Shown: in pieces, positions 9,308 to 25,393 of the stretch
Numbering within the stretch: the stretch's first letter is position 1
Layout: the number at the start of each line of letters is the position of its first letter
Source: Drouetiella hepatica Uher 2000/2452
GTDB taxonomy: Bacteria; Cyanobacteriota; Cyanobacteriia; Elainellales; Elainellaceae
Direction of reading: 5' to 3'
DNA: 64,000 nucleotides
Assembly (NCBI GenBank): GCA_019359505.1
Contig: JAHHHD010000026.1
Span: forward strand, 1-64,000
Translations under genes and position numbers: made by a program
Notes under the pieces: model-generated
Databases searched by the model: none
Seen by the model: the letters and a program-made list of their open reading frames with translations, nothing else
What the model was told of the DNA's origin: nothing

Positions 9308-9641
9308 ACTTGATGGCTTCTAGGCTTTTGTGAATCTTAACAAGCTCATCAACAATCGTCACATTCAGCTTGACATCTGTGCGATCGCTCTTAATTTCGT
9401 CAATCATCTGATACATTTTGACAAATTCTGTAGAAACCAAATGAGAAGTGCGATTCTGCTGCTCCAAGTTAATTTTTCTCAGTCGCTCTACTTCCTGAGT
9501 TAGACTCTCTACCTTCTGTTCTAATCGTTCTATATGTCCTTGCGAAATCGATCGCGCTTCATCAGCTGCTTCAGCCTTAACGACCTTATAAAGAGGATTT
9601 AGGCTGTAGTAGTATACGCGCTTGAAGATACCTCTAACCAT
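9285..9641 (-). CDS. Small coiled-coil protein of the glycan cluster
   Basis: This encodes about 118 residues from ATG 9641; a TTG five codons upstream is the alternative. The ATG overlaps the stop of the large membrane protein gene, typical of translational coupling. The N-terminus is basic (RGIFKRVYYYSLNPLYK). Residues about 30-70 form a heptad-patterned coiled coil (GHIERLEQKVESLTQEVERL), followed by a more polar helical part. I do not recognise a family. Small coiled-coil proteins of this kind sit beside glycosyltransferases in other surface-glycan clusters and might hold them together, which is inference from position only. Confidence 0.7.
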   Translation of the reverse strand: MVRGIFKRVYYYSLNPLYKVVKAEAADEARSISQGHIERLEQKVESLTQEVERLRKINLEQQNRTSHLVSTEFVKMYQMIDEIKSDRTDVKLNVTIVDELVKIHKSLEAIKYERNGSH

Positions 9642-12513
9642 TCTCTTTGAATCCAATAAATTTTAGTTGGGCAGCGACAGGACGATCGTCCCCGGCAGGA
9701 AGACGTTGAAACTTAGAAAAGCGTAAGTCAATTCGTCGTCGAGAATTTCCTGGAGGAACTGCAAGTTGAATCTTGAATTCTCCAGGCTTGAGCATTTGCC
9801 GAATCGCTTCCTGCCCCTCTACTAGAATGATCAGTTCAGTGCTGAAAGCTGAATCTTTGAGTTCCGGCAATGCACCTTGCAGGACTAGCGGAGAAGCGGG
9901 GTTAGTTTGCTTTAGATTAAGGAAGGCTGCTTCAGAGACCCAACCATCTTCATAAATCCCAGAATATTCTAAGTTAGGATTTGCTAAATCGGCGGGAAAA
10001 TCGGCTAAATGACCAGGTGGATTGAGGTTCCTGTATTCTTCGTCAGAAATCAGAGAAACGTCTCGACCAAACCCCACAAGCTGGCGGCGATCGAGCGGGA
10101 TCTCTTTGCCATACCAGTTCATTAACCCTTTTCGTTTGTTTGGCAAACGTTTGCCCTCCACGCCCATGTCAATCTCTAGATACTGGCGTTGATTGATGAT
10201 TTGGGGAGAGAGTGGTGCTGAGAAGACATGGGCAGAACCGCGCCCCACGATACTAAAACTTTTACGTTCACTGCCGATCGCTTCTGCTGGCGGCAGCTTA
10301 TTTTCTTTATCATTTTTCAAGCTAGCTGTTAGGTTAAGTTCCAGACGAACTTGCTCAGAGGGATGAATAGTCTCAAACAAGAGATGCCGTCCCAGCCCTG
10401 ACATTTTTTCCTCAGGAAAGAAGAAGTCTTTTTCAAGCTGATACAGGGCAATTGCCCTGACCTGACCCAAATAGTAATGCTGTCCTAATGTGGAATGATT
10501 GAAGATGAGAAAATTATTGACTTTCCAAAGTGGTTGAGCAATAAAATTTCGGCTGTCCGCAACCCGAAAGCGACGGTTGTTAAATATATCCTGCTGAGAA
10601 GTAGTAGAAATTAGAAAAGGTAGATCTTGCTCATTTCTCAGAGTCGCATTTGCTTGAGCTATAAGATCACCTACTTGTTTGATCATGATGAACGAGTTTC
10701 TAGCCGATGGATTCTGCCGATCCAAGAGATCAAACTCTGCCTGCTGATAGATGCTCGAAATCATTTTAAGAACGGGTTGTGCAGCTTGACTTAGTTCAGG
10801 ATCAGGCACAGCATCTAATCCAAGCTTTCCAAGCTTAACGATCGTTTCATAGAAATCTCGACTGGGAAAAAAGGCGGTTTTGTTGACGGTATAAAGCGCC
10901 TGAAACTTTGCCAAAACAACATTGGCTGTGTCGAGTAGAAACTTTTGGGTCGGCAAAGACTCAAATAGGCTTTGAAACTCACTATAAATTTTTGCTCTAG
11001 AGGCATTTGGCACTTCGATAGTTACGCCCTGCCCCAAACCACGACTTGCCTCAACGTAAGAATTCTGCTGAATGTTTAAGCTAAGTAGCCCAACCAACAG
11101 CAACGGCGCGATCTTGAGAATTAGCTGACGCGGTTGATTCACCCACCAGACCACCATAGTCGCAACGAGAAAAGGCTGAATGAACATTGCTAGCTTGAAC
11201 AAGCCAAAGTCGCTTTGACGAATAAAGAGAACTAAGCCAACGCTCAGCATCACTAGCGTGATTGTTGCACTAGGAGAGTTCCATCGCACCAAGAGAAAAC
11301 TGACTATGATCGCGGTCAGGAGCAGAAACATGCCCAGAAGAATAGTGATGGAAATCCAGGGGTCTCTGTAGGTGCCAGAGATGGGTTGAAGGCTCCAGAA
11401 ACCTGCTAAACCGCTAGGAATAAGAAAGTAGGGAAAGAGGCTAAATTGCAGATCGTTTAATATAATGCCTTTGCCAGTTTGACTGCGTAAAAAAGCGATT
11501 GCATGAATAAAAAAGGTGTTGAGAAAAACTAAATTGGTCAACACCGCAAGGCTGCTAACGATTAGTAGGGGCTTCAAGTAAAGTTTGCGTCTTAAGAGAC
11601 TCACGCCGTGATAGAGCAAAAATGCCAGTACTAAAAAAGGTAAGACTTCAGGATAGATAATAAATAGCGCAACAACCAGTAGACCTGCCAGTAGCCCCTG
11701 CTGGATCAGCGCTCCTCGCTTGAAGTTTTCAAAGGATTGCAGCAGCAAAACCAGACAGCCTGCCAGGATCGCAATACCGCTAACCTGTGCTATGAGTTGC
11801 TGAAGCACTCCATAGGTGTTGAGGGCAGAAATGCTCAGTAGACCGCAGGCAATTAGGGCGGATAGGTAAAGAGTTTTAGTCTGATAGACCAATGCACCAA
11901 TTGTGCTGATCAGAATCAGCAGAAATGCCAGGATTGTTGGCATAAAGACCTGGTGAGCCGTCAACCCTGTGACGCTACAAACCCAAGCTAACAGGAGATC
12001 GCAGCCTGGACGCACACCGCCAGGAACATGCATCAGCCAATAGTAAAGTGTGTAGTCTTTTCCACTGGCTAAGACATCCAGATCTGGAGTGTCAAAAAAT
12101 CCATGCCGAAGAAAAAGATCGGCACTCAGGCAATAGTTTGCCATGTCATCATTAGCATAACTAACCCAGTTAAATCCGAACTCCAGCATTGGGCGACCTG
12201 TTAGATACAATGCTAGTAAGAAGCAAGCAGTAAAGGGAGTATATTCACGCCAAGGCAGCTTGAGACGGATTTTCCAGATTAAAGCAAGGCTAACCAGAAA
12301 CAGAAAGAGGGCTAGAACTTTACCAAAGCTATTTACAGGATTGCCAAGCCGATTGAGCCAAAAAACGGGGAGGAGAGTAATAACTAGTCCTACTACTGGC
12401 GCAAGAAGGACATTTTGTAGAGGATCGCTTTGTCTACGAAGAAACGTTACAGCAGGGTAACCTGCCACAGTCCAGAAAATGAATAGAAGTACCGATAATC
12501 CGAAAGCTAACAA
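9634..12513 (-). CDS. Large multi-spanning membrane protein, probable GT-C-type glycosyltransferase
   Basis: This protein has about 960 residues. The first 480 or so contain around a dozen hydrophobic segments, for example KLLAFGLSVLLFIFWTVAG and ALFLFLVSLALIWKI. The first large loop carries a DDMANYCLSADLFLRHGF region, reminiscent of the acidic first loop of polyprenyl-phosphate-sugar-dependent (GT-C) transferases. The C-terminal half is soluble and probably periplasmic. I chose TTG 12513 because AGGAG lies eight bases upstream; TTG 12534 is the alternative. It lies just downstream of the polyprenyl-phosphate glycosyltransferase gene, which would provide its donor. The GT-C assignment is inferred from topology and neighbours. 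Confidence 0.7.
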   Translation of the reverse strand: MLAFGLSVLLFIFWTVAGYPAVTFLRRQSDPLQNVLLAPVVGLVITLLPVFWLNRLGNPVNSFGKVLALFLFLVSLALIWKIRLKLPWREYTPFTACFLLALYLTGRPMLEFGFNWVSYANDDMANYCLSADLFLRHGFFDTPDLDVLASGKDYTLYYWLMHVPGGVRPGCDLLLAWVCSVTGLTAHQVFMPTILAFLLILISTIGALVYQTKTLYLSALIACGLLSISALNTYGVLQQLIAQVSGIAILAGCLVLLLQSFENFKRGALIQQGLLAGLLVVALFIIYPEVLPFLVLAFLLYHGVSLLRRKLYLKPLLIVSSLAVLTNLVFLNTFFIHAIAFLRSQTGKGIILNDLQFSLFPYFLIPSGLAGFWSLQPISGTYRDPWISITILLGMFLLLTAIIVSFLLVRWNSPSATITLVMLSVGLVLFIRQSDFGLFKLAMFIQPFLVATMVVWWVNQPRQLILKIAPLLLVGLLSLNIQQNSYVEASRGLGQGVTIEVPNASRAKIYSEFQSLFESLPTQKFLLDTANVVLAKFQALYTVNKTAFFPSRDFYETIVKLGKLGLDAVPDPELSQAAQPVLKMISSIYQQAEFDLLDRQNPSARNSFIMIKQVGDLIAQANATLRNEQDLPFLISTTSQQDIFNNRRFRVADSRNFIAQPLWKVNNFLIFNHSTLGQHYYLGQVRAIALYQLEKDFFFPEEKMSGLGRHLLFETIHPSEQVRLELNLTASLKNDKENKLPPAEAIGSERKSFSIVGRGSAHVFSAPLSPQIINQRQYLEIDMGVEGKRLPNKRKGLMNWYGKEIPLDRRQLVGFGRDVSLISDEEYRNLNPPGHLADFPADLANPNLEYSGIYEDGWVSEAAFLNLKQTNPASPLVLQGALPELKDSAFSTELIILVEGQEAIRQMLKPGEFKIQLAVPPGNSRRRIDLRFSKFQRLPAGDDRPVAAQLKFIGFKENG

Positions 12514-12537
12514 TTTTGCTTCTCCTACTTCCAAGTG

Positions 12538-13368
12538 TTACTTGCGAGACTCCAAACGAGCTTTCTCGTTACTTTGAGCTGAAATTTGAGCGATGGATGC
12601 AGGAAAAGTTCGGTGAGACTTTTGGCGCTTTTCTTGAAAGAGTTTCCAACGAATTGTCGCTAAGTCCTTCAGCAATCGCCAAGATCCGGTCAGTGGGTTA
12701 AAGCGGCTATCAGCATCATTACTCCATAGCACAGGAAATTCTAAAACCTGATAGCCTTCCATCAGCGCCCTTAGAATGACTTCGATATCGAACATGAAGC
12801 CATCTGTGAAAGTGGAAGCATAGAGCTGGCGAGCAACCTCACCTCTATAAAGCTTGAAGCCACACTGTGTATCTGAAATGTAGAGCGGTAGACCCATCAG
12901 CGTGTGGATCAAAAAGCCATAGCACTTGGAACCAAGGCGACGATAGAGAGGTTGTCTGCGGCGGACGCTGCCCCTCATCCGGCGAGAGCCAATCGCTATG
13001 TCGCACATTTCTAGTTCCAGCATGGTTAAGCCAATCTTTGCAATGTCGTAGGGAACACACAAACCAGCATCGGCAAACATAACTATTCTGCCCTGTGATC
13101 GAGTGATGCCGTAGCGAAGAGCATAACCTTTACCACTATTGGGTATGTAGCTTAAAACTTTTAGGGATGGAATCTCTGCTTCTAGGGATTTAGCTACTGC
13201 GACCGTATCATCTGGTGAGCCATCGTCTACCACTACAATCTCACCTGCCAACCGCTGAGACTTAAGAAAAGCTTCAGCAGCGCGAATATCTCGCCTAATC
13301 TTGTTGGTTTCCTTGTAGGCAGGAATAATAATGCTTAACTCTAGCTCAGACAGATGATTACTCACCAT
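12538..13368 (-). CDS. GT2 polyprenyl-phosphate glycosyltransferase (DPM1/DPG type)
   Basis: This enzyme should load a sugar from a nucleotide donor onto polyprenyl phosphate at the inner membrane face. Motifs of the dolichyl-phosphate beta-glucosyltransferase group are clear: LSIIIPAYKETNKIRRDI, VVVDDGSPDDTV, NSGKGYALRYGI, and MFADAGLCVP in place of the usual DAD. The DTQCGFKLYRGEVARQLY and DGFMFDIEVILRA segments are diagnostic of this subgroup. I chose ATG 13368 because GGGAGAGGAA precedes it; GTG 13386 is six codons upstream. It lies next to a GtrA-like gene and the big membrane protein, a classic loader-flippase-transferase trio. Confidence 0.88.
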   Translation of the reverse strand: MVSNHLSELELSIIIPAYKETNKIRRDIRAAEAFLKSQRLAGEIVVVDDGSPDDTVAVAKSLEAEIPSLKVLSYIPNSGKGYALRYGITRSQGRIVMFADAGLCVPYDIAKIGLTMLELEMCDIAIGSRRMRGSVRRRQPLYRRLGSKCYGFLIHTLMGLPLYISDTQCGFKLYRGEVARQLYASTFTDGFMFDIEVILRALMEGYQVLEFPVLWSNDADSRFNPLTGSWRLLKDLATIRWKLFQEKRQKSHRTFPASIAQISAQSNEKARLESRK

Positions 13369-13400
13369 TTCCTCTCCCAACCCCACTAACTTTTACTCCA

Positions 13401-13826
13401 TCAACGCCTAGTAAGCGATCGCTGCAACTGACGAAGCTTTGTCCTAACTCCTGCGCTAAATGTCAGATATTTATGGCATAGAAATCCAATAGGAATATTG
13501 ATAATAACTGCTATCAGCTTTGCTTGTAACGGCGTAAGACTTAACTTACTAACACTAATTTGAATAACCAATATCGTAATCAACCAGCAAACAACCACTA
13601 TAACTAAGTAGGTTCTGAACTGACGGATAGTAGAACGCTCAAAGTTTTTGAAGTTAAAGAACTTGTTAAGCATAAAGTGAGCCACCACGGCTACACCGTA
13701 AGAAAGGGTGGTGACCAGTGGCACATACATAGGGGTCAACAGCAAAATCTGAAAGGTTCCTACGTCAACCACGAACACAATTCCACCAATAAGAAGATAG
13801 CGAAATAGAGAAGGTAGCAATTTCAA
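13401..13826 (-). CDS. GtrA-family membrane protein
   Basis: This encodes 141 residues with four predicted membrane segments and the GtrA signature FLRYLLIGG-like start (LFRYLLIGGIVFVVDVGTFQILL). HFMLNKFFNFKN in the middle and GFLCHKYLTF at the end are also typical. GtrA proteins are thought to flip, or help to flip, polyprenyl-phosphate-linked sugars across the inner membrane. The gene is followed 32 bp later by the polyprenyl-phosphate glycosyltransferase, which would make its substrate. The start is TTG 13826. Confidence 0.9.
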   Translation of the reverse strand: MKLLPSLFRYLLIGGIVFVVDVGTFQILLLTPMYVPLVTTLSYGVAVVAHFMLNKFFNFKNFERSTIRQFRTYLVIVVVCWLITILVIQISVSKLSLTPLQAKLIAVIINIPIGFLCHKYLTFSAGVRTKLRQLQRSLTRR

Positions 13827-14714: not shown

Positions 14715-15422
14715 ATGCTCAAAATCAAACTGTTTGCCGATGGTGCTAACTTAGACGACATGCTGGCTGCCTATCAAGGTGGAGTCGTTCAAGGGTTCAC
14801 GACCAATCCCACGCTGATGCGTAGGGCGGGCGTGATGGACTATGAATCCTTTGCTAGAGAAGTCTTAGAAATCATTCCCGATCGCCCCATTTCCTTTGAA
14901 GTTTTTGCCGATGATTTTGAGACCATGTATCGGCAGGCACTACAGATTAACACCTGGGGTGAGAATGTTTACGTCAAAATACCCATCACTAATACCAAAG
15001 GCGAATCAGCTGTGCCGCTGATTAAAAGGCTTGTGGGTGATGGCATTAAGCTCAACGTAACAGCCATTCTAACCCTAGAACAGGTGCAGGCAACCAATCG
15101 GGTGCTGAGTCCGATGATCCCTTCAGTGGTGTCAGTGTTTGCGGGGCGGATTGCAGATACGGGCATTGATCCGGTGCCCTTGATGACGGCAGCGGCTCAA
15201 ATGCTGAGAATTGAGTCCAAAGCCGAGCTGCTGTGGGCAAGTCCTAGAGAGGTTTTAAATGTGTATCAGGCGGATGCCTGCGGCTGCGACATCATTACGG
15301 CAACAAATGACATTTTGAAAAAGCTGTCTATGTTTGGCAAAGATCTAGACGAGCTTTCCCGTGAAACAGTGCAAATGTTTTATGACGATGCCCGTAAAGC
15401 AGGCTTTCAGATTGAGTGTTGA
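14715..15422 (+). CDS. Transaldolase-family protein (small TalC/FSA type)
   Basis: This 235-residue TIM-barrel protein belongs to the small transaldolase/fructose-6-phosphate aldolase group. The signature FTTNPTLM lies near residues 28-35. The Schiff-base lysine is in VYVKIPIT at about 91, and VSVFAGRIADTGIDP lies near 145-159. It is the first gene of the ten-gene operon that contains a complete heptose-activation pathway. A transaldolase can make sedoheptulose 7-phosphate, the substrate of GmhA, so a role in precursor supply is plausible. The alternatives are aldol cleavage of fructose 6-phosphate or action on another sugar phosphate of the pathway. The family call is firm; the reaction is inference. 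Confidence 0.85.
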   Translation: MLKIKLFADGANLDDMLAAYQGGVVQGFTTNPTLMRRAGVMDYESFAREVLEIIPDRPISFEVFADDFETMYRQALQINTWGENVYVKIPITNTKGESAVPLIKRLVGDGIKLNVTAILTLEQVQATNRVLSPMIPSVVSVFAGRIADTGIDPVPLMTAAAQMLRIESKAELLWASPREVLNVYQADACGCDIITATNDILKKLSMFGKDLDELSRETVQMFYDDARKAGFQIEC

Positions 15423-15488
15423 GGGCAGATTGAGTGTTGAGGGAGCGATCGCGCTTCAGGATTCAGTTGACCTGTAGGGGAGTGAGGC

Positions 15489-16427
15489 ATGACGACACAG
15501 CGAACGGTTTTAATTACAGGCGTGGCAGGTTTTATCGGCAGCAACCTTGCCGATCGCCTGCTCTCTGAGGGCTTCCGGGTGATTGGCATCGACAACTTGT
15601 CCTATGGTGTGCTGGAGCAGGTACCCGAAGGAGTAGAGTTTCACAAGCTGGATATTCGATCGTCCGAAATTTACCCTCTCTTTAATCAGGTAGACGCTGT
15701 TTATCATCTGGCGGCAAAAAACTGTATAGCCGACTGTCAAATCGATCCCCTAGAAACTAGCGATATTAACGTCACGGGGACGGTCAATGTATTTGAGGCT
15801 TCACGTCGCGGTCAAGTCGGTAAGGTGATCTACGCGGAATCCTCGGCGCTGTATGAAGGTTCCTCAGTCATGCCCACGCCAGAAAGCGAGGTCTATCCTC
15901 AAAGCTTTTATGCGGTTAGTAAACTGGCAGGCATGGCGTTTGCGGAAGCCTATCGCCGCTTTTATGGGCTGCGAACCACAGCACTCCGCTATTTCTGTGT
16001 GTATGGCCCGCGTCAAGACTATCGCCGCACCATTCCGCCTCTGATGAGCGCTTTCGTCATCAACTTGCTGCAAGGCAAGCAGCCGACGATCTATGGCACA
16101 GGCGAGAAGCGTCGAGATTTCATCTACGTAGATGATGTCAACGACTTTCATCTGCAATGTTTAGATGACCCCCGCACAGATGGCAATGTCTATAACTTGG
16201 GCAGCGGCATCAGCTACTCTGTGTTGGACATCTACAAGGCGATCGCCCGTCTGCTGGGAAAAGATATCCAGCCTCAGTTTAAGCCTGATCTGCCGGGTGA
16301 GGCAGACGTAACCTTAGCGGATATTTCTGCGGCAAGATCAGTAGGATGGTCGCCCCATGTCTCTCTAGACGAAGGTTTAATTCAGTCAATTACCTTCATC
16401 AAAGACAAAGTATTAACGCAGCCATGA
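15489..16427 (+). CDS. NAD-dependent nucleotide-sugar epimerase/dehydratase (extended SDR)
   Basis: The protein has 312 residues. A Rossmann GVAGFIGSN motif (GxxGxxG) is near residue 11, and the catalytic YAVSKLAG (YxxxK) is near 141-148. The following region holds LRYFCVYGPRQDYRRT and IYGTGEKRRDFIYVDDV, typical of UDP-glucose/GlcNAc 4-epimerase relatives. It follows the transaldolase gene by 66 bp and overlaps the methyltransferase gene by four bases (ATGA). In this operon it could act on the GDP-heptose product, for example as a C4/C6 oxidation-epimerisation step, but a standard hexose epimerase is equally compatible with the motifs. Confidence 0.88.
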   Translation: MTTQRTVLITGVAGFIGSNLADRLLSEGFRVIGIDNLSYGVLEQVPEGVEFHKLDIRSSEIYPLFNQVDAVYHLAAKNCIADCQIDPLETSDINVTGTVNVFEASRRGQVGKVIYAESSALYEGSSVMPTPESEVYPQSFYAVSKLAGMAFAEAYRRFYGLRTTALRYFCVYGPRQDYRRTIPPLMSAFVINLLQGKQPTIYGTGEKRRDFIYVDDVNDFHLQCLDDPRTDGNVYNLGSGISYSVLDIYKAIARLLGKDIQPQFKPDLPGEADVTLADISAARSVGWSPHVSLDEGLIQSITFIKDKVLTQP

Positions 16428-17194
16428 ATGAAGCCCTAGAGAACCGGGACTACAAAATCGCAGATTATCTGGCGCGATCGGCAGATTACTATGCGCTGAC
16501 TAAATATAAAATCATCATGACCTGGTTGCCTAAAACTGCTAATCTGCGAGTGTTGAACGCAGGCTGCGGTTCTGGAGAGATGAATATTTTGCTGGCTCAA
16601 AATCCATCTTGGCAGGTGGAGGCGATCGACATTGATCCAGAAGCGATTCAGATTTCCGAACATCTGAGAGAAGAACACAAGCTAGAAAACCTTAAGGTCT
16701 TCAAATGCAGCATTGAAGATCTAGATAGACCCCTAGGGTATTACGATGCGATCATTTCTAACGATGTCTTAGAACATATTGAAGACGATCTGGCGGCAAT
16801 GAAAAAGCTAGCAGGCTTGCTGAAACTGAATGGCATCCTCTGTGTTTCGGTTCCGGCACTGCAGTCGCTGTTTGGCTATCACGATGAACAATTGGCGCAT
16901 TACCGCCGCTATAACAAAAGCAACTTAACCCGAAAGCTTTTCCAGTACTTTGAAGTTCAAAAGTGCCGATATTTTGCTGCAATCTTAATCCCGATCGCCC
17001 TTCTCTATAGCTGTTGGCTCCGCAAACCCTACCCCATCGGTGAACCGGGCAAAGAATCTCTCGTGACCAAACTGCTCAAATTCTTATTGGCGCTAGAAGC
17101 CAACGTACCGCTGCTTACGGGAACATCTTTAATCGCCATGGCTACTCCAAAACGGCTTTCTAGCACAGTCCTTTTAGAAAGAGGTCAAGAATAA
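16424..17194 (+). CDS. Class I SAM-dependent methyltransferase
   Basis: This encodes 256 residues. Motif I is LRVLNAGCGSGEMNILLA with the acidic VEAIDIDPEAI, and motif IV is YDAIISNDVLEHIEDD, as in UbiG/Methyltransf_11-type enzymes. The C-terminal part contains a hydrophobic segment (FAAILIPIALLYSCWLR), so it may be membrane-associated. I chose the ATG at 16424 because it overlaps the upstream stop as ATGA; the longer frame from 16346 runs into the epimerase gene. Its last base is shared with the ATG of the nucleotidyltransferase gene (TAATG). A role in methylating a sugar of the glycan is inferred. Confidence 0.87.
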   Translation: MNEALENRDYKIADYLARSADYYALTKYKIIMTWLPKTANLRVLNAGCGSGEMNILLAQNPSWQVEAIDIDPEAIQISEHLREEHKLENLKVFKCSIEDLDRPLGYYDAIISNDVLEHIEDDLAAMKKLAGLLKLNGILCVSVPALQSLFGYHDEQLAHYRRYNKSNLTRKLFQYFEVQKCRYFAAILIPIALLYSCWLRKPYPIGEPGKESLVTKLLKFLLALEANVPLLTGTSLIAMATPKRLSSTVLLERGQE

Positions 17195-17934
17195 TGGGAA
17201 TGCCGGGAGTGCTAGTCTTAGCTGCGGGCAAAAGCACAAGAATTCAGTCGATCGCCCAAGGCATTCCTAAGCCGCTGCTCTCGATTCAAGAGCGCAGTAT
17301 CTTAGAGCGAAACCTGTCCTGGCTGGCTCAATCGGGCGCTGATACAATCTGGATCAATCTGCACTATCGCCCAGATGATATTCAAACGGCGATCGGCGAC
17401 GGTTCAGAGCTAGGACTAAACATTTCCTACTCCTTGGAGCCTGAGATTCTAGGCACTGCCGGAGCCTACAAAAATTTGGAGTCCCAGTGGAAAGGCTCAA
17501 CGCTGGTAGTCTATGGCGATAGCTTAGTGCGGTTTGATCTACAGAAATTTCTCACAACTCATGAAAAAACGAACGCGGATGTAACGATCGCCCTATTTGA
17601 CCAAAACATGCATCTCCATACGGCGATCGCTGGGGGACGAGTGGTGATGGATGACCAGAATCGCATTACCGATTTTGTCGAAACCGGAGCCGGAGAAGCA
17701 CCTCGCTCAACGCTAATCAATGCCGCAGTTTATCTCTTGGAACCAGAAATTCTAGATCTGATTCCAGAACAAACTTTTTACGACTTCGCCCGCGATTTGT
17801 TTCCGAAGATGCTGGCAGAAGGGTATTATCTGCAAGGTCATCTGATCGATGGCTATTGCTTGGGGTTAGATACTCCCGAAAGCTACGCCAAAGCGATGTC
17901 CCTTATTGAATCTGAGCAAATAAAACTAGCATGA
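17194..17934 (+). CDS. hddC: Sugar-phosphate nucleotidyltransferase (HddC-like)
   Basis: This 246-residue NTP_transferase-fold enzyme shows VLAAGKSTRIQS with the downstream IPKPLL lysine, VVYGDSL as the metal-site motif, and a LGTAGAYK substrate-binding segment. In heptose operons, enzymes of this size (HddC, D-glycero-alpha-D-manno-heptose 1-phosphate guanylyltransferase) form GDP-heptose. HddC is proposed here because the adjacent kinase, phosphatase and isomerase genes complete that pathway. The sequence alone does not exclude another NDP-sugar. It is coupled to both neighbours: TAATG at its start and ATGA at its end. Confidence 0.75.
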   Translation: MGMPGVLVLAAGKSTRIQSIAQGIPKPLLSIQERSILERNLSWLAQSGADTIWINLHYRPDDIQTAIGDGSELGLNISYSLEPEILGTAGAYKNLESQWKGSTLVVYGDSLVRFDLQKFLTTHEKTNADVTIALFDQNMHLHTAIAGGRVVMDDQNRITDFVETGAGEAPRSTLINAAVYLLEPEILDLIPEQTFYDFARDLFPKMLAEGYYLQGHLIDGYCLGLDTPESYAKAMSLIESEQIKLA

Positions 17935-18980
17935 TCATCACGCGCACACCCTTTAGAGTCACGTTGGGCGGCGGCGGTACAGACCTGCCTTCCTACTACG
18001 AAAAGAATGGCGGGTTCATCTTCGCGATGGGCATCAACAAGTTTATGTACGTGATGATCAATCCGCCCACGATCGACACCATGATTCGCCTTCACTACAC
18101 CCAGAGCGAAACAGTGTTTCATGTCTCAGAGTTGCAGCATGAACTGGCGAGAGAGGCGCTGCGCTATCACGGCATTGAAGAAAAGATGGAGATTTCCTCC
18201 ATGGCAGATTTGCCTGCCGGAACAGGGGTCGGTTCTTCGAGCTGCTATCTCATTGGGTTGCTGACAGCACTGCACCACTACCGTAGAGACTATATTTCGC
18301 TGCAAGAGCTATCGGAAGAAGCCTGCCATATTGAGCTGGATATCTTGAAAAAGGGCATTGGCAAGCAGGATCAGTACATGGCGGCATTCGGGGGGTTGAC
18401 GGTGCTAGAGATTGCCAAGGGCGGTGCAGTCACCGTCAAGCCAGTGCGAATGGGCAGTAGCTCGATCGCCGAACTGGTGGCAAACACCCACATTTACTAC
18501 ACTGGGTTCCGACGCGATGCGGTCGATGTCCTGTCAGAGCAAAATACCGCTATGCAGTCTCAGACCGTCCCCAAACATGATGTGGTGGCAAACAGCCTGC
18601 ATCACATTAAAGATCTGGGCTACCGAATTTTAGAGGCGATCGAAACAGAAGATTTTGATGCCTGGGGCAAAATGCTGCATGAACATTGGCAGTTCAAAAA
18701 GCAAATGTCGGCGCGGATCAGTCTCACAAAAGTGGATCAGATTTATGCAGAAGTGCAGCAAAACTACAATGTCTTGGGTGGCAAAATCATCGGCGCAGGG
18801 GGCGGCGGTTTCCTGATGCTCTACTGCAGCAAAAACCACAAGCAGCTAGAGCAGTTCATGGAGTCTCAAAAGATGCCGCGTCTGCACTATACGATCGAGC
18901 CAGAAGGCTCTAAAGTGGTGGCGGATGTGTCGAGCAACGATGCGCTGATGTTCCACTCAAGAGATTTTGTATCCAGGTAG
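17931..18980 (+). CDS. hddA: GHMP kinase, D-glycero-alpha-D-manno-heptose 7-phosphate kinase type (HddA-like)
   Basis: This enzyme phosphorylates the anomeric carbon of heptose 7-phosphate. The 349-residue GHMP kinase has the N-terminal TPFRVTLGGGGTDLPSYY motif, the ATP-binding LPAGTGVGSSSCYLIGLL (residues about 93-110), KKGIGKQDQYMAAFGG and the C-terminal KIIGAGGGGFLMLYC. The GGGGTDLP start and GKQDQY segment are characteristic of the HddA/FKP-kinase group. It overlaps the nucleotidyltransferase gene by four bases. With GmhA, GmhB and HddC types in the same operon, the heptose assignment is favoured over L-fucose kinase. Confidence 0.83.
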   Translation: MIITRTPFRVTLGGGGTDLPSYYEKNGGFIFAMGINKFMYVMINPPTIDTMIRLHYTQSETVFHVSELQHELAREALRYHGIEEKMEISSMADLPAGTGVGSSSCYLIGLLTALHHYRRDYISLQELSEEACHIELDILKKGIGKQDQYMAAFGGLTVLEIAKGGAVTVKPVRMGSSSIAELVANTHIYYTGFRRDAVDVLSEQNTAMQSQTVPKHDVVANSLHHIKDLGYRILEAIETEDFDAWGKMLHEHWQFKKQMSARISLTKVDQIYAEVQQNYNVLGGKIIGAGGGGFLMLYCSKNHKQLEQFMESQKMPRLHYTIEPEGSKVVADVSSNDALMFHSRDFVSR

Positions 18981-18984
18981 TCCT

Positions 18985-20289
18985 ATGGCAGTACATGAAA
19001 AAATTGGCATTGTTGGACTTTGGCATCTCGGTTGTGTAATCTCGGCAGCCTGGTCAACGCTGGGCAAGACGGTGCAGGGCGTTGATTTTGATCACGCGCT
19101 CATTGACAACCTGAGCCAGGGTCAGCCGCCGATCTTTGAGCCAGGGCTACAGGAAACCATCCAAACAGGTCTAAGTCAGGGGAAACTCGGCTATTCGACC
19201 GATCCGGCAATGTTGTCAGACTGCGGATTGGTGTTTCTGGCCTACGATACTCCCGTGCGAGACGATGACACCTCGGATCTAACAATTCTGGAGGAGGCAA
19301 TCGCCAAAATTGGTTCCCACCTCAGCCCCAGAACGATTTTGATTGTCAGCGCTCAGCTGCCTGCTGGCACAGCCCGACAGTTTCGCGCCCAGCTGAAGGA
19401 GTTTGAGCCATCGCTAGAGCTGGTGTATTCTCCAGAAAATCTGCGCTTGGGCGAGGCGATCGACTGCTACCTGCATCCCGGACATATTGTCATTGGGGCG
19501 GATGATCCCCAGGCAGGGCAGACCGTCACTGAACTATTTGCGCCGATGCAGGCCGAATGCCTATTGATGAACTTGCCCAGTGCTGAGATGACCAAGCATG
19601 GCATTAACTCATTTCTGGCGGCTTCGATCACGCTGGCAAACCAGTGGGCAGATATCTGTACTGCCGTGGGTGCTGACTTTACTCAAGTTGCCGCCGCCAT
19701 GAAGCTAGATCCCCGGATTGGCAAGCGGGCGTATCTTAGCTCTGGCATTGGCTTCTCCGGCGGCACTCTGGGGCGCGATCTGAAGGTGCTGGAAGCCATT
19801 AATCAACGGTCAGGTAATGAGTCTCCGATCTTTGGTACCGTCTGGCAGTACAACAAGTCCAGAGTCAAGGTGGTGGCTAAGATGTCAGAGGCGGCGATCG
19901 GCTCTCTGAAAGGTAAAAGAGTGGCGCTGCTTGGCATGACCTATAAGCCAGGAACTAGCACCCTACGCCGCAGTTTGCCTCTAGAGGTTGCCTCTGATCT
20001 GATCGCTAAGGGGGCAGAGATTAGAGCTTATGACCCTAAGGCAAATTGGAATGAAGTGCAGATTCCGGCGCAGCTACAAGTTTGTTCTACGGCATACGAT
20101 GCGGCGGCGGACGCAGATCTAGTAGTGCTGCTGACGGAATGGGCTGAGTTTAAAGAGCTGGATTTTCAAGAGATTCGCGATCGCATGAAGGGCAGCACTT
20201 TCTTTGACACCAAGAATTTTCTGTTGACAAAATTTGACCAGATTCGCGAACTAGGATTCACTGTCTTGAGCATTGGGCGCAGCTGCTAG
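18985..20289 (+). CDS. UDP-glucose/GDP-mannose dehydrogenase homologue lacking the catalytic cysteine
   Basis: The protein has 434 residues from ATG 18985, four bases after the kinase stop; a TTG start six codons earlier would overlap the kinase. The three UDPG_MGDP_dh domains are present: an N-terminal Rossmann part (IGIVGLWHLGCV), a central helix with EMTKHGINSFLA (the usual Lys204 and Asn208), and a C-terminal domain with GMTYKPGTSTLRRSLPLEV. The active-site loop reads GIGFSGGTLGRD where the family has GxGYGGSCFPKD. Thr261 therefore replaces the nucleophilic Cys, while the Asp is kept. It should not perform the usual two-step oxidation to a uronic acid through a thioester. A single oxidation, a different chemistry or a non-catalytic role remain possible. 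Confidence 0.85.
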   Translation: MAVHEKIGIVGLWHLGCVISAAWSTLGKTVQGVDFDHALIDNLSQGQPPIFEPGLQETIQTGLSQGKLGYSTDPAMLSDCGLVFLAYDTPVRDDDTSDLTILEEAIAKIGSHLSPRTILIVSAQLPAGTARQFRAQLKEFEPSLELVYSPENLRLGEAIDCYLHPGHIVIGADDPQAGQTVTELFAPMQAECLLMNLPSAEMTKHGINSFLAASITLANQWADICTAVGADFTQVAAAMKLDPRIGKRAYLSSGIGFSGGTLGRDLKVLEAINQRSGNESPIFGTVWQYNKSRVKVVAKMSEAAIGSLKGKRVALLGMTYKPGTSTLRRSLPLEVASDLIAKGAEIRAYDPKANWNEVQIPAQLQVCSTAYDAAADADLVVLLTEWAEFKELDFQEIRDRMKGSTFFDTKNFLLTKFDQIRELGFTVLSIGRSC

Positions 20290-20331
20290 GCAAAAAATTG
20301 GGGAAAAATTAGAAAAAGTGAGGCAGAGATT

Positions 20332-21201
20332 GTGTCTGAGGTAGCGATCGATCTATCCAATAAAAATATCTTAATCACGGGTGGCAGCATGGGCATTGGC
20401 TATGCTGCTGCTGAAGCCTGTCTCAAAGCTAATGGGCGTGTAGTGATCTGCGCTCGCAACTCAGAAGACATTGACAAAGCTCTGAGCCAGCTTCGGGCGA
20501 TCGGATCGGGGCAGGTCGTTGGCGTATCTGCCGATGTGACTCAACACGATCAGGTGGAGGCAGCGTTAGACAAAGTTGAATCTAGCTTTGGAGTACTGAA
20601 TGCCGTCATCCATGCAGCCGGAATTTATGGACCGATCGGCGCGCTCACAGAGGTCGATCCGGAAGCCTGGTTCAATGCGATTCGGATTAACCTTTTCGGC
20701 TCTTTTTTGGTGGCGCGGCAAAGCTGTTTGCGGCTGCAAAAAACGGGGGGCAGAATTGCGCTGTTCTCCGGCGGCGGTGCGGCGACTCCGTTTCCCAACT
20801 ACACCGCCTACGCTTGCGGCAAGGTCGGAGTTGTGCGGTTCACAGAGACGATCGCGCAAGAAATGGCTCCTTTTAAGATTCAGATCAACTGTATTGCGCC
20901 AGGTTTTGTGATTACCCGATTGCACCAACAAACCCTGGAGGCAGGGGCAAATCTGGCAGGCGAGAAGTTCTTGGAAAATACCAAAGCGCAAATTGAGAAA
21001 GGGGGCGTACCTGCTTCGGTGGGTGGCAATGCAGCAGCCTTCCTGATTTCTGACCGGGCGGACGGCATCACCGGAAAATTTGTTGCCGCTCCCTATGACG
21101 GTTGGCAAAACTGGGTTGATCATCTAGAAGAGCTAAAAACCACGGATATCTTTACGCTGCGCCGAATTTTGCCGAAAGAGCGCGGCATGGACTGGCAATA
21201 G
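20332..21201 (+). CDS. Short-chain dehydrogenase/reductase
   Basis: This 289-residue classical SDR has ITGGSMGIGYA (cofactor-binding TGxxxGxG) at about residues 15-25, a NAG-like AVIHAAGIYG segment, and a catalytic Ser-Tyr-Lys set in LFSGGGAATP followed by YAcGK (YACGK). The substrate loop after GF(V)ITRLHQQ is long. The start is GTG 20332, preceded by GAGG. It lies in the heptose operon between the dehydrogenase homologue and the Gfo/Idh/MocA oxidoreductase. The three redox enzymes may act in succession on one nucleotide sugar or sugar phosphate. The actual substrate is unknown. Confidence 0.87.
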   Translation: MSEVAIDLSNKNILITGGSMGIGYAAAEACLKANGRVVICARNSEDIDKALSQLRAIGSGQVVGVSADVTQHDQVEAALDKVESSFGVLNAVIHAAGIYGPIGALTEVDPEAWFNAIRINLFGSFLVARQSCLRLQKTGGRIALFSGGGAATPFPNYTAYACGKVGVVRFTETIAQEMAPFKIQINCIAPGFVITRLHQQTLEAGANLAGEKFLENTKAQIEKGGVPASVGGNAAAFLISDRADGITGKFVAAPYDGWQNWVDHLEELKTTDIFTLRRILPKERGMDWQ

Positions 21202-21271
21202 AGGCTTGCTTGGCTCTTTCTCTAAACGAACAAGCTCAATCAATCAGGGTTCATCAGCGAGATAGGAAAGC

Positions 21272-22276
21272 ATGAAAGTTGCAGTGATTGGGTGTGGGCT
21301 AATTGGCAAACGACGATCGCAAACTGCGATGGAACATCCGTTATCAGAATTAGCGATCGTCGTAGACATCAATCCGGCAGCGGCGGAAGCTGTAGCTGCG
21401 CAATATGGCTGTGAGTCTGCAACCGACTGGAAAGCGGCAATCGCCCATCCCGATATTGACATCGTTGCTGTAGCGACACACAACGGGCTACTGGCAGAAA
21501 TCGCGATCGCCGCCCTGCAAGCCGGAAAGCACGTGCTGATCGAAAAGCCAATGGGGCGCAACTTAGCCGAAGCTTTGAAAATGGCGGAAGCTGCGAAAGC
21601 CGCCAATCGCATTCTCAAAATTGGCTTCAATCACCGCTATCATCCGGCTCTAGCTAAAGCCTATGATTTGTTTCAGGCTGGGGCGATCGGTGAGATTATC
21701 AATATCCGCGCTCGATATGGGCATGGCGGACGACCGGGCTACGAAAACGAGTGGCGCGGCAATCCAGAGCTAGCGGGCGGCGGCGAACTCACCGATCAGG
21801 GAGTGCACATAGCCGATCTGATTCACTGGTTCGCCGGACTGCCCACTGAAGCCTTCGCCTATCTACAAACGGCGATCTGGCCAATTCAGCCCCTCGAAGA
21901 CAACGGCTTTGGTCTGTTTCGGTTTGGCGATGGAGCAATCGCCAGTTTTCACACGAGCTGGACGCAGTGGAAAAACCTGTTCTCCTTTGAGATTTACGGG
22001 CAGAAAGGTTCTCTGACAATTGAAGGGCTAGGCAAAAGCTACGGCATCGAACGGCTGACGATCGCCTATCGCAAGCCCGAAGGCGGTGTGCCTGACCTAG
22101 AAGATCTCGTTTTCGATTTGCCAGACACATCTTGGGAGTTAGAATGGCAAGATTTCATCGAAGCGATCGCTGCCAAAACTCCCTACTGGGGTGCTCCAGA
22201 GGAGGGGGTCAGCGCTATGCGGATGCTGGACGCGCTCTATCGATCGGCAAAGGCAGGAGCGCCGATTCATGTCTGA
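21272..22276 (+). CDS. Gfo/Idh/MocA-family oxidoreductase
   Basis: The protein has 334 residues. The N-terminal Rossmann fold begins VAVIGCGLIGKRR. The cofactor/active-site motif EKPMGRNLAEA (EKP) is near residue 92, and GFNHRYHPAL and the helical GGGELTDQGVHIADLIHW (DxxxH-type) complete the family pattern. AGGAAA precedes ATG 21272. These enzymes oxidise or reduce sugar hydroxyl groups, often at C3 of nucleotide sugars. It overlaps the GmhB-like gene by eight bases, which ties it to the heptose genes. Substrate and direction are unknown. Confidence 0.9.
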   Translation: MKVAVIGCGLIGKRRSQTAMEHPLSELAIVVDINPAAAEAVAAQYGCESATDWKAAIAHPDIDIVAVATHNGLLAEIAIAALQAGKHVLIEKPMGRNLAEALKMAEAAKAANRILKIGFNHRYHPALAKAYDLFQAGAIGEIINIRARYGHGGRPGYENEWRGNPELAGGGELTDQGVHIADLIHWFAGLPTEAFAYLQTAIWPIQPLEDNGFGLFRFGDGAIASFHTSWTQWKNLFSFEIYGQKGSLTIEGLGKSYGIERLTIAYRKPEGGVPDLEDLVFDLPDTSWELEWQDFIEAIAAKTPYWGAPEEGVSAMRMLDALYRSAKAGAPIHV

Positions 22277-22826
22277 TCGGCTTAGACTTGCCAATGAGGC
22301 TGGCTTAAGACCAGGAGTTTTTCTCGATCGCGATGGGGTAATTAATCAGGTTGTCTACCGAGATGGACAGGCTGTTTCTCCTCGTTCACTCCCAGAGTTT
22401 GTCTGGACAGCGGGTATTCAAGCGGCGGTTAACCAAATCAAGCTAGCGGCTTTGCCCGTGTTTGTGGTCACCAATCAGCCAGACATTGCCCGACACAAGA
22501 TGGAGGCAGCCGTCTTGGAGCAAATGACAGCCCTGATCTATCAAACCTTGCCGATTGACGATCTGCGGGTTTGTCCCCACGACAATGGCGATCGCTGCTC
22601 CTGTCGTAAACCCCATCCTGGTATGCTAGTTGAGTTGGCGACTCAATGGAATATTGATCTGAGTCGGTCTTTTATAGTAGGGGACTCCTGGAAAGATATG
22701 CAGGCAGGAAAACAGGCAGGCTGCCAGACAATCTTAATTCAGCGAGACTACAACCAGGGCACCGAAGCCGATTTTGGAGTGCCAGATGTCTTATCAGCTG
22801 CCAATCTGATTTTAGAGTTAGTTTGA
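22269..22826 (+). CDS. gmhB: HAD phosphatase, D-glycero-manno-heptose 1,7-bisphosphate 7-phosphatase type
   Basis: This enzyme removes the 7-phosphate of heptose 1,7-bisphosphate. The 185-residue HAD-IIIA protein has FLDRDGVIN with the nucleophile Asp (about residue 20) and general acid DxD, VTNQPDIAR as motif II, the zinc-binding VCPHDNGDRCSCRKPHPGM region typical of GmhB, and IVGDSWKDMQAG as motif IV. I chose ATG 22269 over the longer frame from 22191 because family members begin shortly before the DxD motif. It overlaps the oxidoreductase gene by eight bases. Confidence 0.88.
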   Translation: MSDRLRLANEAGLRPGVFLDRDGVINQVVYRDGQAVSPRSLPEFVWTAGIQAAVNQIKLAALPVFVVTNQPDIARHKMEAAVLEQMTALIYQTLPIDDLRVCPHDNGDRCSCRKPHPGMLVELATQWNIDLSRSFIVGDSWKDMQAGKQAGCQTILIQRDYNQGTEADFGVPDVLSAANLILELV

Positions 22827-22870
22827 GTTTTAGATTTGATTTGTTTGAACCGCGAGGGAGGGCTTTGAAA

Positions 22871-23467
22871 ATGGGATATGTGGCCGAATTTTTTGCAGAT
22901 GCGAAAACAATTATTGATGCGATCGACATCAATATCGTTGAGAAAATGGTGGATGAAATTGTTGCAATCCGTGAAAACGGCGGGCGGCTTTTTTTCATTG
23001 GCGTGGGCGGTGGTGCAGGACATGCTAGCCACGCGGTTAACGACTTTCGCAAGATTGCAGGCATCGAATCCTATACACCCACAGATAATGTCTCAGAGCT
23101 GACGGCACGCATCAATGATGATGGCTGGGAATCGGCATTTGTTAACTGGCTGAAGGGCAGCCGTCTCAACGCAAAGGACGGCATTTTTGTGTTCTCGGTC
23201 GGAGGCGGCAATGCTGAAAAAAATGTTAGCGTCAACATTGTTTCTTCCCTGCAATATGCCAAGGAAATTGGCGCAAAGGTGTTTGGAGTCGTTGGTCGAG
23301 ATGGCGGCTATACGGCGCAGGTTGCAGATGCTTGCGTAGTCATTCCCCCCATCCGCAGCGAGACTGTAACACCCCAAGCAGAGGCTTTTCAGGCTGTAGT
23401 CTGGCACCTGGTAGTGTCTCATCCTAAGCTGCAAAAGTATGAAATGAAGTGGGAATCAGTTAAATAA
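22871..23467 (+). CDS. gmhA: SIS-domain phosphoheptose isomerase type
   Basis: GmhA converts sedoheptulose 7-phosphate to D-glycero-D-manno-heptose 7-phosphate, the first committed heptose step. This 198-residue SIS protein has GGRLFFIGVGGGAGHASHAVNDF, quoted in part (FFIGVGGGAGHASH), IFVFSVGGGNAEKNVS and the C-terminal PQAEAFQAVVWHLVVSHP, all in GmhA-like positions. ATG 22871 is preceded by GGGAGGG; a TTG at 22823 is the alternative. It closes the operon and overlaps the convergent FkbM gene by 12 bp. Relatives include other SIS sugar isomerases; the heptose call rests on the linked HddA/GmhB/HddC genes. Confidence 0.8.
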   Translation: MGYVAEFFADAKTIIDAIDINIVEKMVDEIVAIRENGGRLFFIGVGGGAGHASHAVNDFRKIAGIESYTPTDNVSELTARINDDGWESAFVNWLKGSRLNAKDGIFVFSVGGGNAEKNVSVNIVSSLQYAKEIGAKVFGVVGRDGGYTAQVADACVVIPPIRSETVTPQAEAFQAVVWHLVVSHPKLQKYEMKWESVK

Positions 23468-25393
23468 TTGCGAAAAGCGAGAGATTTTGCGGCGCACCCG
23501 GCGATCGACTGTAGATTCAAGCGATCGCCGTAAGACTTCGATTTCTTCGACTTGCTCTCTAATCACTTGTCGCTGCTCTTTTAAGGCGGCTGTTGCCCTG
23601 CGAATCCGCAAATTTTTGCTTTGCCTCAAGGTCTGAATTTCCTGCTGCTGCTGACGCTTTAGCTGTTCGATCGCATGTTCGTTCTGGGCGATTTTTTGCT
23701 GCTGTTCCTGAATAATCTGTAGACGTTCGTCGGCAGTTTGTTTTAATACATCGATCAATTGAAGTCTTGCTTCAGCAGCTTGTTTTAATACATTGATCAA
23801 TTGAAGTCTTGCTTCAGCAGCCTCAAGCAGCTCGTGCATCTGGGATTGCATCGTCTCTATCTGCTCTCTCGTCTGATCAGAAATCTGATGAGAGGTCTGG
23901 TGAGAAATTTGTCTCTCATTCCTTAAAGCACCTTGAAATCTCCGAGCATTCATAGCTATATCCCACCTATGGATGAGATCTTTAGCTAAAGCTTGAGTTG
24001 TCGAACTAGCCCCATCAAGGCGATCGTTAGCTTGCTTTAAGTCGGTAACCGCAAACAAATTTTTATAGGGATATGTGCTGTGATAAGGCTCTGGCACAAG
24101 TTGAAAATGAGTTGCATCAAAGTAACAAATTGTATAGCCAAAATCTTCTAAAGCAGTCCGCAGTTTTTGAGTTGTGCTTCCGGCAGCAACAGCATTTTCC
24201 TCAGTAAACTCAATCATCCACAGAGGAAATTTTCCTGCCTTAATGGACTGCTCTGCACCGTTAAGAACCTGAAGCTCCCATCCTTCTACATCTAACTTTG
24301 CTAGATCAACTTGCTCAACGTTTAAATCTGAGATAAGCGCATCTAACGTGTGGCTTTTGACAGATATTTTACTGGGACTCATACGATCGCCCAGTTGCTC
24401 ACCCGTTGCAAAAGTGCTGAAGGCTGCTAGTCCGTCTTTACCGAGTATGAGGGTTGCATATCCCTCTTGGTCAGAGAGACCTGCTTCAATAGCAGTAAAG
24501 TTGCTAAACCCCAACTGACTGAGATTGTAATTGTAAAGCTCAAAGCAAGCTGGGTTAGGTTCAAAACCTACGATGCGCCCACTGCCCTGAAGGGCTTTGG
24601 CTGCAACACAAGAAAAAATACCGACATGCGCGCCACAGTCGAAGAAAGTGTCTCCCGATCTTAAGTAGAGCAGAACGAAAGCTTGTTCAATTCCTTCAAA
24701 AACACCTTCTTCAACCAGTTGCCCAACATGATCATGCTTTGGAAATCGAATTTTACCGATATACGGAGCGTTTAACTCATATTGTGATGGCTCTGAGTTA
24801 CTCGAAGCATATCGATTAACCCTAACAAATTCTAGATTTTCCTCTAAATCATTGCTTTGCAATTGAGAAGAGATTAGTCTAAAACCTCTATCAGTCAAAT
24901 ACTCTAAAACTTCTTTTTTGCTAGAACTATTGACGTATAAGGGAACTTTTTGAACCTCAACAATAATATTTTTGATCACCGAGAGTGCATTACCTGCACT
25001 TTTAAGGACTTGAAGGCCATAGCCTTTAGCATCGACCTTCAGAAGATCTACTTCCTCGATTGAATGTTGCTGAATAAAGGTATCTAGGCGAGTCACTGGA
25101 ACTTCAATCGTTTTAACCTCTTCTAGCTGCTCAGCATAGGGCTTCCAAGATTCACTCATCTCAACGGTAGACAAAGATGAGGTTTGCAAATCTCTGTTGA
25201 GGTGGAAGTTAAATAAACCCTCTTGCTCTCCCACAGCTGCACATAGCACATGAATGTTGGGGAGCTGGTGTGAGCGAATCACCTCAGCGAGTTCGGGAAT
25301 AGGCTCAATGGCATACACAACATTGTTACTATCTTGAGCATAAGGGAGTGAAAACAGCTTGCCATCATGAGCACCAACATCAATGATAATCAT
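23456..25393 (-). CDS. Tandem FkbM-type methyltransferase with C-terminal coiled coil
   Basis: The protein has 645 residues. Two FkbM methyltransferase domains lie in tandem. The first is about residues 1-195 (IIIDVGAHDGKLF, then VDLLKVDAKGYGLQVLKSA). The second is about 230-440 (TFFDCGAHVGIFSC, VGFEPNPACF, VDLAKLDVEGWELQVLNGA). Residues about 500-640 are a long coiled coil containing a 14-residue tandem repeat, EARLQLINVLKQAA. FkbM domains methylate hydroxyl groups, often on sugars. The gene converges on the heptose operon, so a role in glycan methylation is likely. The second copy keeps the SAM-site motif better than the first, which may have diverged. Confidence 0.87.
   Translation of the reverse strand: MIIIDVGAHDGKLFSLPYAQDSNNVVYAIEPIPELAEVIRSHQLPNIHVLCAAVGEQEGLFNFHLNRDLQTSSLSTVEMSESWKPYAEQLEEVKTIEVPVTRLDTFIQQHSIEEVDLLKVDAKGYGLQVLKSAGNALSVIKNIIVEVQKVPLYVNSSSKKEVLEYLTDRGFRLISSQLQSNDLEENLEFVRVNRYASSNSEPSQYELNAPYIGKIRFPKHDHVGQLVEEGVFEGIEQAFVLLYLRSGDTFFDCGAHVGIFSCVAAKALQGSGRIVGFEPNPACFELYNYNLSQLGFSNFTAIEAGLSDQEGYATLILGKDGLAAFSTFATGEQLGDRMSPSKISVKSHTLDALISDLNVEQVDLAKLDVEGWELQVLNGAEQSIKAGKFPLWMIEFTEENAVAAGSTTQKLRTALEDFGYTICYFDATHFQLVPEPYHSTYPYKNLFAVTDLKQANDRLDGASSTTQALAKDLIHRWDIAMNARRFQGALRNERQISHQTSHQISDQTREQIETMQSQMHELLEAAEARLQLINVLKQAAEARLQLIDVLKQTADERLQIIQEQQQKIAQNEHAIEQLKRQQQQEIQTLRQSKNLRIRRATAALKEQRQVIREQVEEIEVLRRSLESTVDRRVRRKISRFSQLFN
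23719..23822 (-). repeat. 42-bp tandem repeat inside the FkbM gene
   Basis: Roughly two and a half copies of a 42-bp unit (the copy 23761-23802 is complete) encode the 14-residue coiled-coil unit. The copies differ by only a few bases, so the expansion is recent. Because the unit is a multiple of three, the reading frame is kept. Confidence 0.85.

Follow-up and report, generated by a model that had tools for sequence, protein, structure and literature searches.

UDP-glucose dehydrogenases (UGD) are the textbook case of a four-electron oxidation, in which an alcohol is converted to an acid via a cysteine thioester. The window, by which we mean the whole 64,000-nucleotide stretch of DNA that was analysed, carries at 18985-20289 (+ strand) the gene of a nucleotide-sugar dehydrogenase that lacks this cysteine, here called UGDT. 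The question raised by the locus is which reaction such an enzyme would catalyze.

Sequence and predicted structure of UGDT

The reading frame comprises 434 codons plus a stop, without internal stop codons. The 434-residue product matched PF03721 (NAD-binding), PF00984 (central) and PF03720 (UDP-binding) of Pfam, all above cut-off, and scored 307.4 bits against a cut-off of 189.8 for TIGR03026, the nucleotide sugar dehydrogenase superfamily. The UGD equivalog cut-offs were missed by a wide margin (TuaD, 275 vs 700 bits; AglM, 233 vs 670 bits). The catalytic loop reads GIGFSGGTLGRD and aligned without a gap to the solved UDP-glucose dehydrogenases 3gg2 and 4a7p, with Thr261 (codon ACT at 19765-19767) opposite the catalytic cysteine. 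Alignment and codon thus bear out the original prediction that threonine replaces the cysteine. That prediction also described the N-terminal motif as the variant GLWHLG, as found in the translation, and Lys204, Asn208 and the following aspartate as preserved. All three are kept in UGDT (Asp265 being Asp264 of the S. pyogenes enzyme) and each is present in 83 of 83 subfamily members (the best 80 of 172 matches plus three, see below).

The structure of UGDT was predicted with confidence (pLDDT 95.6, pTM 0.90), and the best solved matches of the model were UDP-glucose dehydrogenases, with TM-scores of about 0.9 to BceC (0.90) and UgdG. The window protein keeps 13 of the 18 family-invariant positions listed in PMC4794789 (in part). 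The differences from its nearest relative at codon positions 1, 2 and 3 (0.25/0.13/0.64) indicate that the gene is kept by selection. Two ordinary family copies occur in the same genome (L001 and L002), both of the Cys type with GGSCFPKD. On sequence grounds UGDT is filed in the superfamily and outside its four-electron dehydrogenases, because their defining cysteine was tested for and found absent.

A subfamily with threonine at the catalytic position

Relatives sharing the motifs of UGDT were first found on two Rhizobium megaplasmids, and an alignment of the three proteins seeded a single scan across 84,980 species genomes with the peptide patterns AYDTPV[DR]D and [EP]SAEMTKH. Of 191 pattern matches 172 were confirmed, and the best 80 of these were kept. 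The subfamily set (n = 83) consists of the window protein, the two Rhizobium plasmid proteins and these best 80 of 172, and the 82 loci used for gene neighborhoods are the best 80 of 172 plus the two plasmid matches. The set leans to members with the search motifs; the threonine itself is part of neither pattern. The ordinary homologues used for comparison (n = 61) are mostly cyanobacterial and were chosen by similarity to the window, as were 21 control regions.

Threonine occupied the catalytic cysteine position in 83 of 83 members (the best 80 of 172 plus three), compared with cysteine in 61 of 61 ordinary homologues. The 83 members formed one clade with an SH-aLRT support of 100 in a tree of 101 rows, and a carefully built tree of 45 sequences (28 members and 17 others) supported the clade at 100/100. 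By record label, mostly of MAGs that may include mis-binned contigs, the members (again the best 80 of 172 plus three) come from about 21 phyla, including the archaeal Methanobacteriota and Thermoplasmatota. Within this set the nearest kin of the window protein were from Limnofasciculus (72% identity), a Nitrospira MAG (62%) and a Gemmatimonadetes MAG (57%). The longest subfamily branch belongs to a Nomurabacteria member (L076:9992-11275), whose locus contains all nine cassette genes described below in a slightly different order.

A profile search of 199 Acidobacteriota genomes (E ≤ 1e-120) matched five, including one that the set already contained. The four further members, which lie outside the defining set, all have the threonine (4/4) and heptose genes alongside (4/4); Asp264 is replaced by Glu in L196, and the Gly before Thr by Ala in another. 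The Thr-type enzyme of L196 also reads VGIWHQG in place of GLWHLG, and the member at L195:4121-11400 has the loop GGATLARD, a Gfo/Idh gene in place of the SDR as the next gene downstream, and HddA, GmhB and HddC relatives beside it. Among 60 genomes of close relatives of the host, the 29 loci fetched besides that of the window were all of the Cys type, other matches being judged by score only. No other member was recognised in 386 sampled genomes of the phylum (E ≤ 1e-66), among whose matches the motif was inspected in the 29 newly fetched loci, with Cys in each.

Since threonine was found in 83 of 83 members and 4 of 4 further ones and cysteine in 61 of 61 ordinary enzymes, Thr261 is neither a chance substitution nor a sequencing error. 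That the UGDT proteins form a distinct subfamily is, from their sequences, nearly certain.

Concerted changes in the active site

Two features go beyond the original prediction: other active-site positions have changed together with the cysteine, and the gene lies inside a heptose cassette (14715-23467). Cys260 is replaced by Thr, Tyr10 by His, Thr118 by Gln, Phe142 by Asn, Ser259 by Gly, Phe261 by Leu and Lys263 by Arg, each in 83 of 83 members (the best 80 of 172 plus three) and in 0 of 61 ordinary homologues. In the same 83 proteins Gly9 is replaced by Trp in 81 and Glu145 by Leu in 82. The corresponding residues of the window protein are Trp13 (Gly9), His14 (Tyr10), Gln124 (Thr118), Asn152 (Phe142) and Leu155 (Glu145), and in the loop Ser258 (Gly257), Gly260 (Ser259), Leu262 (Phe261) and Arg264 (Lys263). 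Lys204, Asn208, Asp264, Glu141, Thr83, Lys320, Arg244 and Arg327 are unchanged in 83 of 83 (best 80 of 172 plus three).

Across 229 aligned proteins of the family 18 residues do not vary, including Cys260, Thr118 and Gly9, and Tyr10 is 98% conserved (PMC4794789, in part). The same source, as far as covered here, assigns Tyr10 to thioester hydrolysis, Thr118 to the catalytic water and the first oxidation to Asp264, Lys204 and Asn208. By these assignments the subfamily retains the residues of the first oxidation, and those of the second are replaced.

The original prediction held that without the thioester-forming cysteine the enzyme cannot follow the usual four-electron route. The loss of the residue stands; the conclusion is slightly too strong, since the C276A variant of human UGDH, though unable to carry the reaction through from UDP-glucose, still oxidised added aldehyde (PMC3184952, in part). 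The C276S variant accumulates a covalent adduct, according to the same portion of that source. A substitute cysteine elsewhere in the active site, which by the original prediction would have refuted it, was rejected: none is newly conserved in the 83 members (the best 80 of 172 plus three) relative to the 61 ordinary enzymes, and Cys225, the sole broadly conserved cysteine of the window protein, is also present in 60 of the 61. The window protein has Ala both at column 22, where Cys is common to 60 of 61 ordinary enzymes, and at column 336, where Cys occurs in 60 of 83 members (best 80 of 172 plus three).

The gene cassette in the window

UGDT is encoded in a cassette of ten same-strand genes (14715-23467, +) that are separated by no more than 70 bases and in several places overlap by 1-8 bases. 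The order is transaldolase, epimerase, methyltransferase, HddC-like, HddA-like, UGDT, SDR, Gfo/Idh, GmhB-like and GmhA-like. The transaldolase (TAL; 14715-15422) is of the TIGR02134 type (336 bits, cut-off 282), occurs in 49 of 82 loci (the best 80 of 172 plus two) and is the probable source of sedoheptulose 7-phosphate. The NAD-dependent sugar epimerase (EPI; 15489-16427) matched PF01370 with 195 bits and has UDP-glucose 4-epimerases as its best solved relatives. The epimerase of the window clade falls in a different cluster (cluster 15, 5 loci) from that of most cassettes (cluster 2, 68 loci), so the stereochemistry of the final sugar may differ. A class I SAM methyltransferase (MT) follows at 16424-17194, with the start codon of our choice (PF13847, matched on 16418-17194); it is a variable part, present in 8 of 82 loci (the best 80 of 172 plus two).

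The HddC-like sugar-1-phosphate nucleotidyltransferase (17194-17934) matched PF00483, reached 79.5 bits for NF049965 (cut-off 300) and has 5xhw and 6jq8 as solved relatives. The HddA-like GHMP heptose-7-phosphate 1-kinase (17931-18980) reached 131 bits for NF049969 (cut-off 600), with 3k85 and 4n3o as relatives. Downstream of UGDT lie the SDR oxidoreductase (20332-21201; PF00106, 150 bits), with a conserved YxxxK and a near-constant place beside UGDT, and a Gfo/Idh/MocA oxidoreductase (GFO; 21272-22276; PF01408, PF22725), found in 70 of 82 loci (the best 80 of 172 plus two). The GmhB-like heptose-1,7-bisphosphate 7-phosphatase (22269-22826) scored above the TIGR01656 cut-off and below that of NF006506 (117 bits, cut-off 178). 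The cassette ends with a divergent GmhA-like ketose-aldose isomerase of the SIS type (22823-23467), which scored 38 bits for TIGR00441 (cut-off 209) and has phosphoheptose isomerases as top solved relatives. The HddA and GmhA relatives are each present in a single copy in the genome, within the cassette.

Divergent to the cassette, 12538-13826 (- strand) encodes a family-2 glycosyltransferase and a GtrA-type membrane protein (PF00535, PF04138), which hints at a possible loading of the sugar onto polyprenyl phosphate; GT2 relatives accompany 31 of 82 loci (the best 80 of 172 plus two). Beside these genes, 9634-12534 (-) encodes a probable membrane protein of 966 residues, with relatives in L118 and L121 and no Pfam match at E ≤ 1e-5. 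Convergent with the cassette end, 23456-25393 (-) encodes a 645-residue protein that contains two FkbM-type methyltransferase stretches and has a long, charged tail.

Conservation of the cassette

Neighbors were called by tblastn at 35% identity or more, and contig ends lower the counts. The next gene after UGDT was an SDR in 81 of 82 loci (the best 80 of 172 plus two). In the 32 of these loci that extend for 9 kb or more in both directions, relatives were found of SDR in 32, GFO in 31, HddA in 31, EPI in 29, HddC in 27, GmhA in 26, TAL in 26 and GmhB in 23. Of these 32 long loci, 22 contained all five precursor genes and 25 contained four or more. All nine cassette families were present in 37 of the 82 loci (best 80 of 172 plus two), in 26 of them in the identical order EPI-UGDT-SDR-GFO-HddA-HddC-GmhA-GmhB-TAL, mostly within 8 kb. 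Among the 32 long loci, L123 alone lacks HddA; its genome also holds L117 and has an HddA relative. A search of 18 UGDT-bearing genomes at E ≤ 1e-20 gave no HddA match in six.

The 21 control regions, which surround ordinary dehydrogenases, comprise 20 that are 8.6-19.5 kb long and one from a Burkholderia plasmid; TAL, GmhA, HddA, GmhB or GFO occurred in 0 of 21. Weak matches in these regions were to EPI in 12 (one at 35% identity), HddC in 2 (29-32%), SDR in 1 (28%) and GT2 in 1 (25%). Together, the single clade, the invariant concerted change of the active site and the conserved gene context lend good support to the original prediction of a subfamily with a chemistry of its own.

The SDR partner is not obligatory, as it does not adjoin UGDT in L132 and L195. 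In two melainabacteria-like genomes (L175:2584-6014 and L177:15858-18999) the same GmhA-GmhB-transaldolase module is followed, directly behind the transaldolase, by a Cys-type dehydrogenase with GGSCLPKD, which sits on a long branch and groups with the ordinary enzymes in the tree. A Cys-type and a Thr-type dehydrogenase share one operon in the Acidobacteriota locus L196:1135-7588. These cases argue that the precursor module alone does not dictate the Cys-less form and can feed other tailoring.

The sugar precursor

A heptose nucleotide as substrate, one of the two originally suggested, is strongly indicated: five genes of the heptose-1,7-bisphosphate route adjoin UGDT and recur with it. The nearest named solved relatives of the kinase and the isomerase are heptose enzymes, and heptose-pathway structures make up two of the three nearest solved relatives of the nucleotidyltransferase. 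The GmhA-, HddA-, GmhB- and HddC-like proteins all scored below their NCBIfam equivalog cut-offs; the transaldolase alone passes (336 vs 282). The precursor may for this reason be other than D-glycero-D-manno-heptose. The zinc ligands of GmhA are His61, Glu65, His183 and Gln175 (PMC5387315, in part), and in a weak alignment the His, Glu, His and Gln read His, Asp, His and Glu here. Because of the scores below cut-off and these altered ligands, we word the substrate of UGDT, with good though not full confidence, as an NDP-heptose, probably GDP-linked.

Proposed reaction and alternatives

Taken together, the data suggest that UGDT is a two-electron NAD-dependent dehydrogenase of an NDP-heptose that most likely oxidises the C6 hydroxyl to a ketone, a joint reading to which we give a probability of about 0.45. 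The parts differ in strength: a two-electron reaction, the single oxidation of the original prediction, is likely from the active-site residues, and the C6 ketone as its product has somewhat less than an even chance.

In the proposed route, transaldolase would make sedoheptulose 7-phosphate, which the GmhA-like isomerase would convert to an aldoheptose 7-phosphate. The HddA-like kinase would add the 1-phosphate, the GmhB-like phosphatase would remove the 7-phosphate and the HddC-like transferase would form the NDP-heptose (probably GDP-heptose). UGDT would bind this as UDP-glucose dehydrogenase binds UDP-glucose, with Asp265 and its water acting as base and the oxygen stabilised by Lys204 and Asn208, and the hydride would pass to NAD+. 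The C6 of the heptose would lie at the reaction spot beside the nicotinamide, and because it is a secondary alcohol the product would be a 6-ketone. Since a ketone cannot be oxidised via a thioester, Cys260, Tyr10 and the water-holding Thr118 would have lost their use. The SDR encoded by the next gene would probably reduce the ketone again, for example with inversion of C6, and the Gfo/Idh enzyme and epimerase would alter other carbons. Assuming a C6 ketone would thus explain the loss of the second-half residues, the retention of the first-half residues, the heptose module and also the SDR partner, since a keto sugar needs a ketoreductase. UDP-4-keto-xylose in human UGDH was considered as a ketone precedent and rejected, because E. 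coli ArnA was the source of that ligand.

The loss of Cys260, Tyr10 and Thr118 would equally predict an enzyme that stops at an aldehyde, oxidising a primary alcohol once (C7 of an NDP-heptose or C6 of an NDP-hexose) and releasing the product for the SDR or another enzyme. Users of a sugar aldehyde would be expected nearby, however, and no aminotransferase or aldehyde dehydrogenase was recognised, by cluster representative, in ORF clusters present in at least four loci; we regard this possibility as unlikely, at about one chance in a handful. The kept Asp265 and its water site, and the human C276A variant that still oxidised added aldehyde, would also suit a full four-electron oxidation to the carboxylate via the aldehyde hydrate instead of a thioester. 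That variant failed to carry the reaction through from UDP-glucose, however (PMC3184952, in part), Tyr10 and Thr118 are lost as well, and the L196 operon pairs the Cys type with the Thr type, so that their roles seem distinct. We regard a carboxylate product as unlikely, somewhat more so than an aldehyde.

The substrate itself could be of another kind if the GmhA, HddA and HddC relatives act on a different ketose phosphate and UGDT on the NDP-sugar made from it. All four relatives, GmhB included, falling below the heptose cut-offs, with the GmhA-like protein far from GmhA (38 vs 209 bits), would fit such a route, but the nearest named solved relatives of kinase and isomerase are heptose enzymes, as are two of the three nearest of the nucleotidyltransferase, and the step order matches a 1,7-bisphosphate route for which the cassette supplies both a 7-phosphatase and a transaldolase. 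We consider a non-heptose precursor doubtful, nearly to the same degree as the aldehyde. The lost catalytic residue could raise the suspicion of a pseudoenzyme, dead or regulatory, or of an error in sequencing; this is very improbable in view of threonine in 83 of 83 members (the best 80 of 172 plus three), the 13 of 18 invariant positions kept in the window protein, the purifying codon-position pattern and the confident, intact predicted fold.

With the two-electron oxidation of an NDP-heptose as the preferred reading, the product of the nine-gene kit is probably an unusual seven-carbon sugar destined for cell surfaces. A wider proposal, which we put forward only tentatively, is that UGDT founds a branch of UGD whose members form ketones in a two-electron reaction at the secondary C6 hydroxyl of an NDP-heptose. 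Together with the SDR, Gfo/Idh enzyme and epimerase it would build an undescribed heptose, from a self-contained kit exchanged among about 20 phyla including archaea. If true, a natural branch that lost precisely the residues of the second half and retained those of the first would show how evolution halves a four-electron mechanism and would offer a testable enzyme for keto sugars. As the compact, ordered cassette is found in about 21 phyla (the best 80 of 172 plus three), working out a single member would supply the annotation of a surface-sugar pathway whose genes have only general family names.

Comparison with known systems

In the open-licence PMC literature, covered by titles and abstract beginnings and with subscription papers outside the scope, no account of the Cys-less branch or of the cassette was found. 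The O-antigen genes of Coxiella burnetii are not shown to be a known home of the cassette in the sections of PMC5843353 considered. A small verrucomicrobial endosymbiont is reported to have Udg, GmhA, HddA and HddC (PMC8204192, in part). The GDP-mannose and UDP-ManNAc dehydrogenases (1mfz and 4r16, by deposited names) belong to the same superfamily as UGDT and are four-electron enzymes; unlike UGDT they keep the cysteine, which is invariant in 229 sequences (PMC4794789, in part). UDP-glucose 6-dehydrogenase (TuaD/AglM; BceC 2y0e, UgdG 4a7p and the P. gingivalis enzyme 3gg2) resembles UGDT in its three domains, its fold and Lys204, Asn208 and Asp264, whereas Cys, Tyr10 and Thr118 are replaced in all UGDT members (the best 80 of 172 plus three) and UGDT is found in heptose cassettes.

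The dehydrogenase Cj1427 of C. jejuni is an SDR. In this organism four enzymes convert sedoheptulose 7-phosphate to GDP-heptose, which is then oxidised to a keto sugar and reduced (PMC10680097, in part). The precursor logic is the same as that of the UGDT cassette and the tailoring differs, the oxidising enzyme in C. jejuni being the C4-dehydrogenase Cj1427 and here a UGD-fold protein predicted to act at C6. How the C6 stereochemistry of heptoses is changed, a question on which the proposed reaction would bear if true, is described as unclear in the case of two serotypes of C. jejuni (PMC10680097, in part). By analogy, the net effect proposed for UGDT and SDR could match that of HldD, the ADP-heptose 6-epimerase, in inverting C6. 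HldD does so as one enzyme with a bound cofactor, whereas the UGDT-SDR pair would use two separate oxidoreductases.
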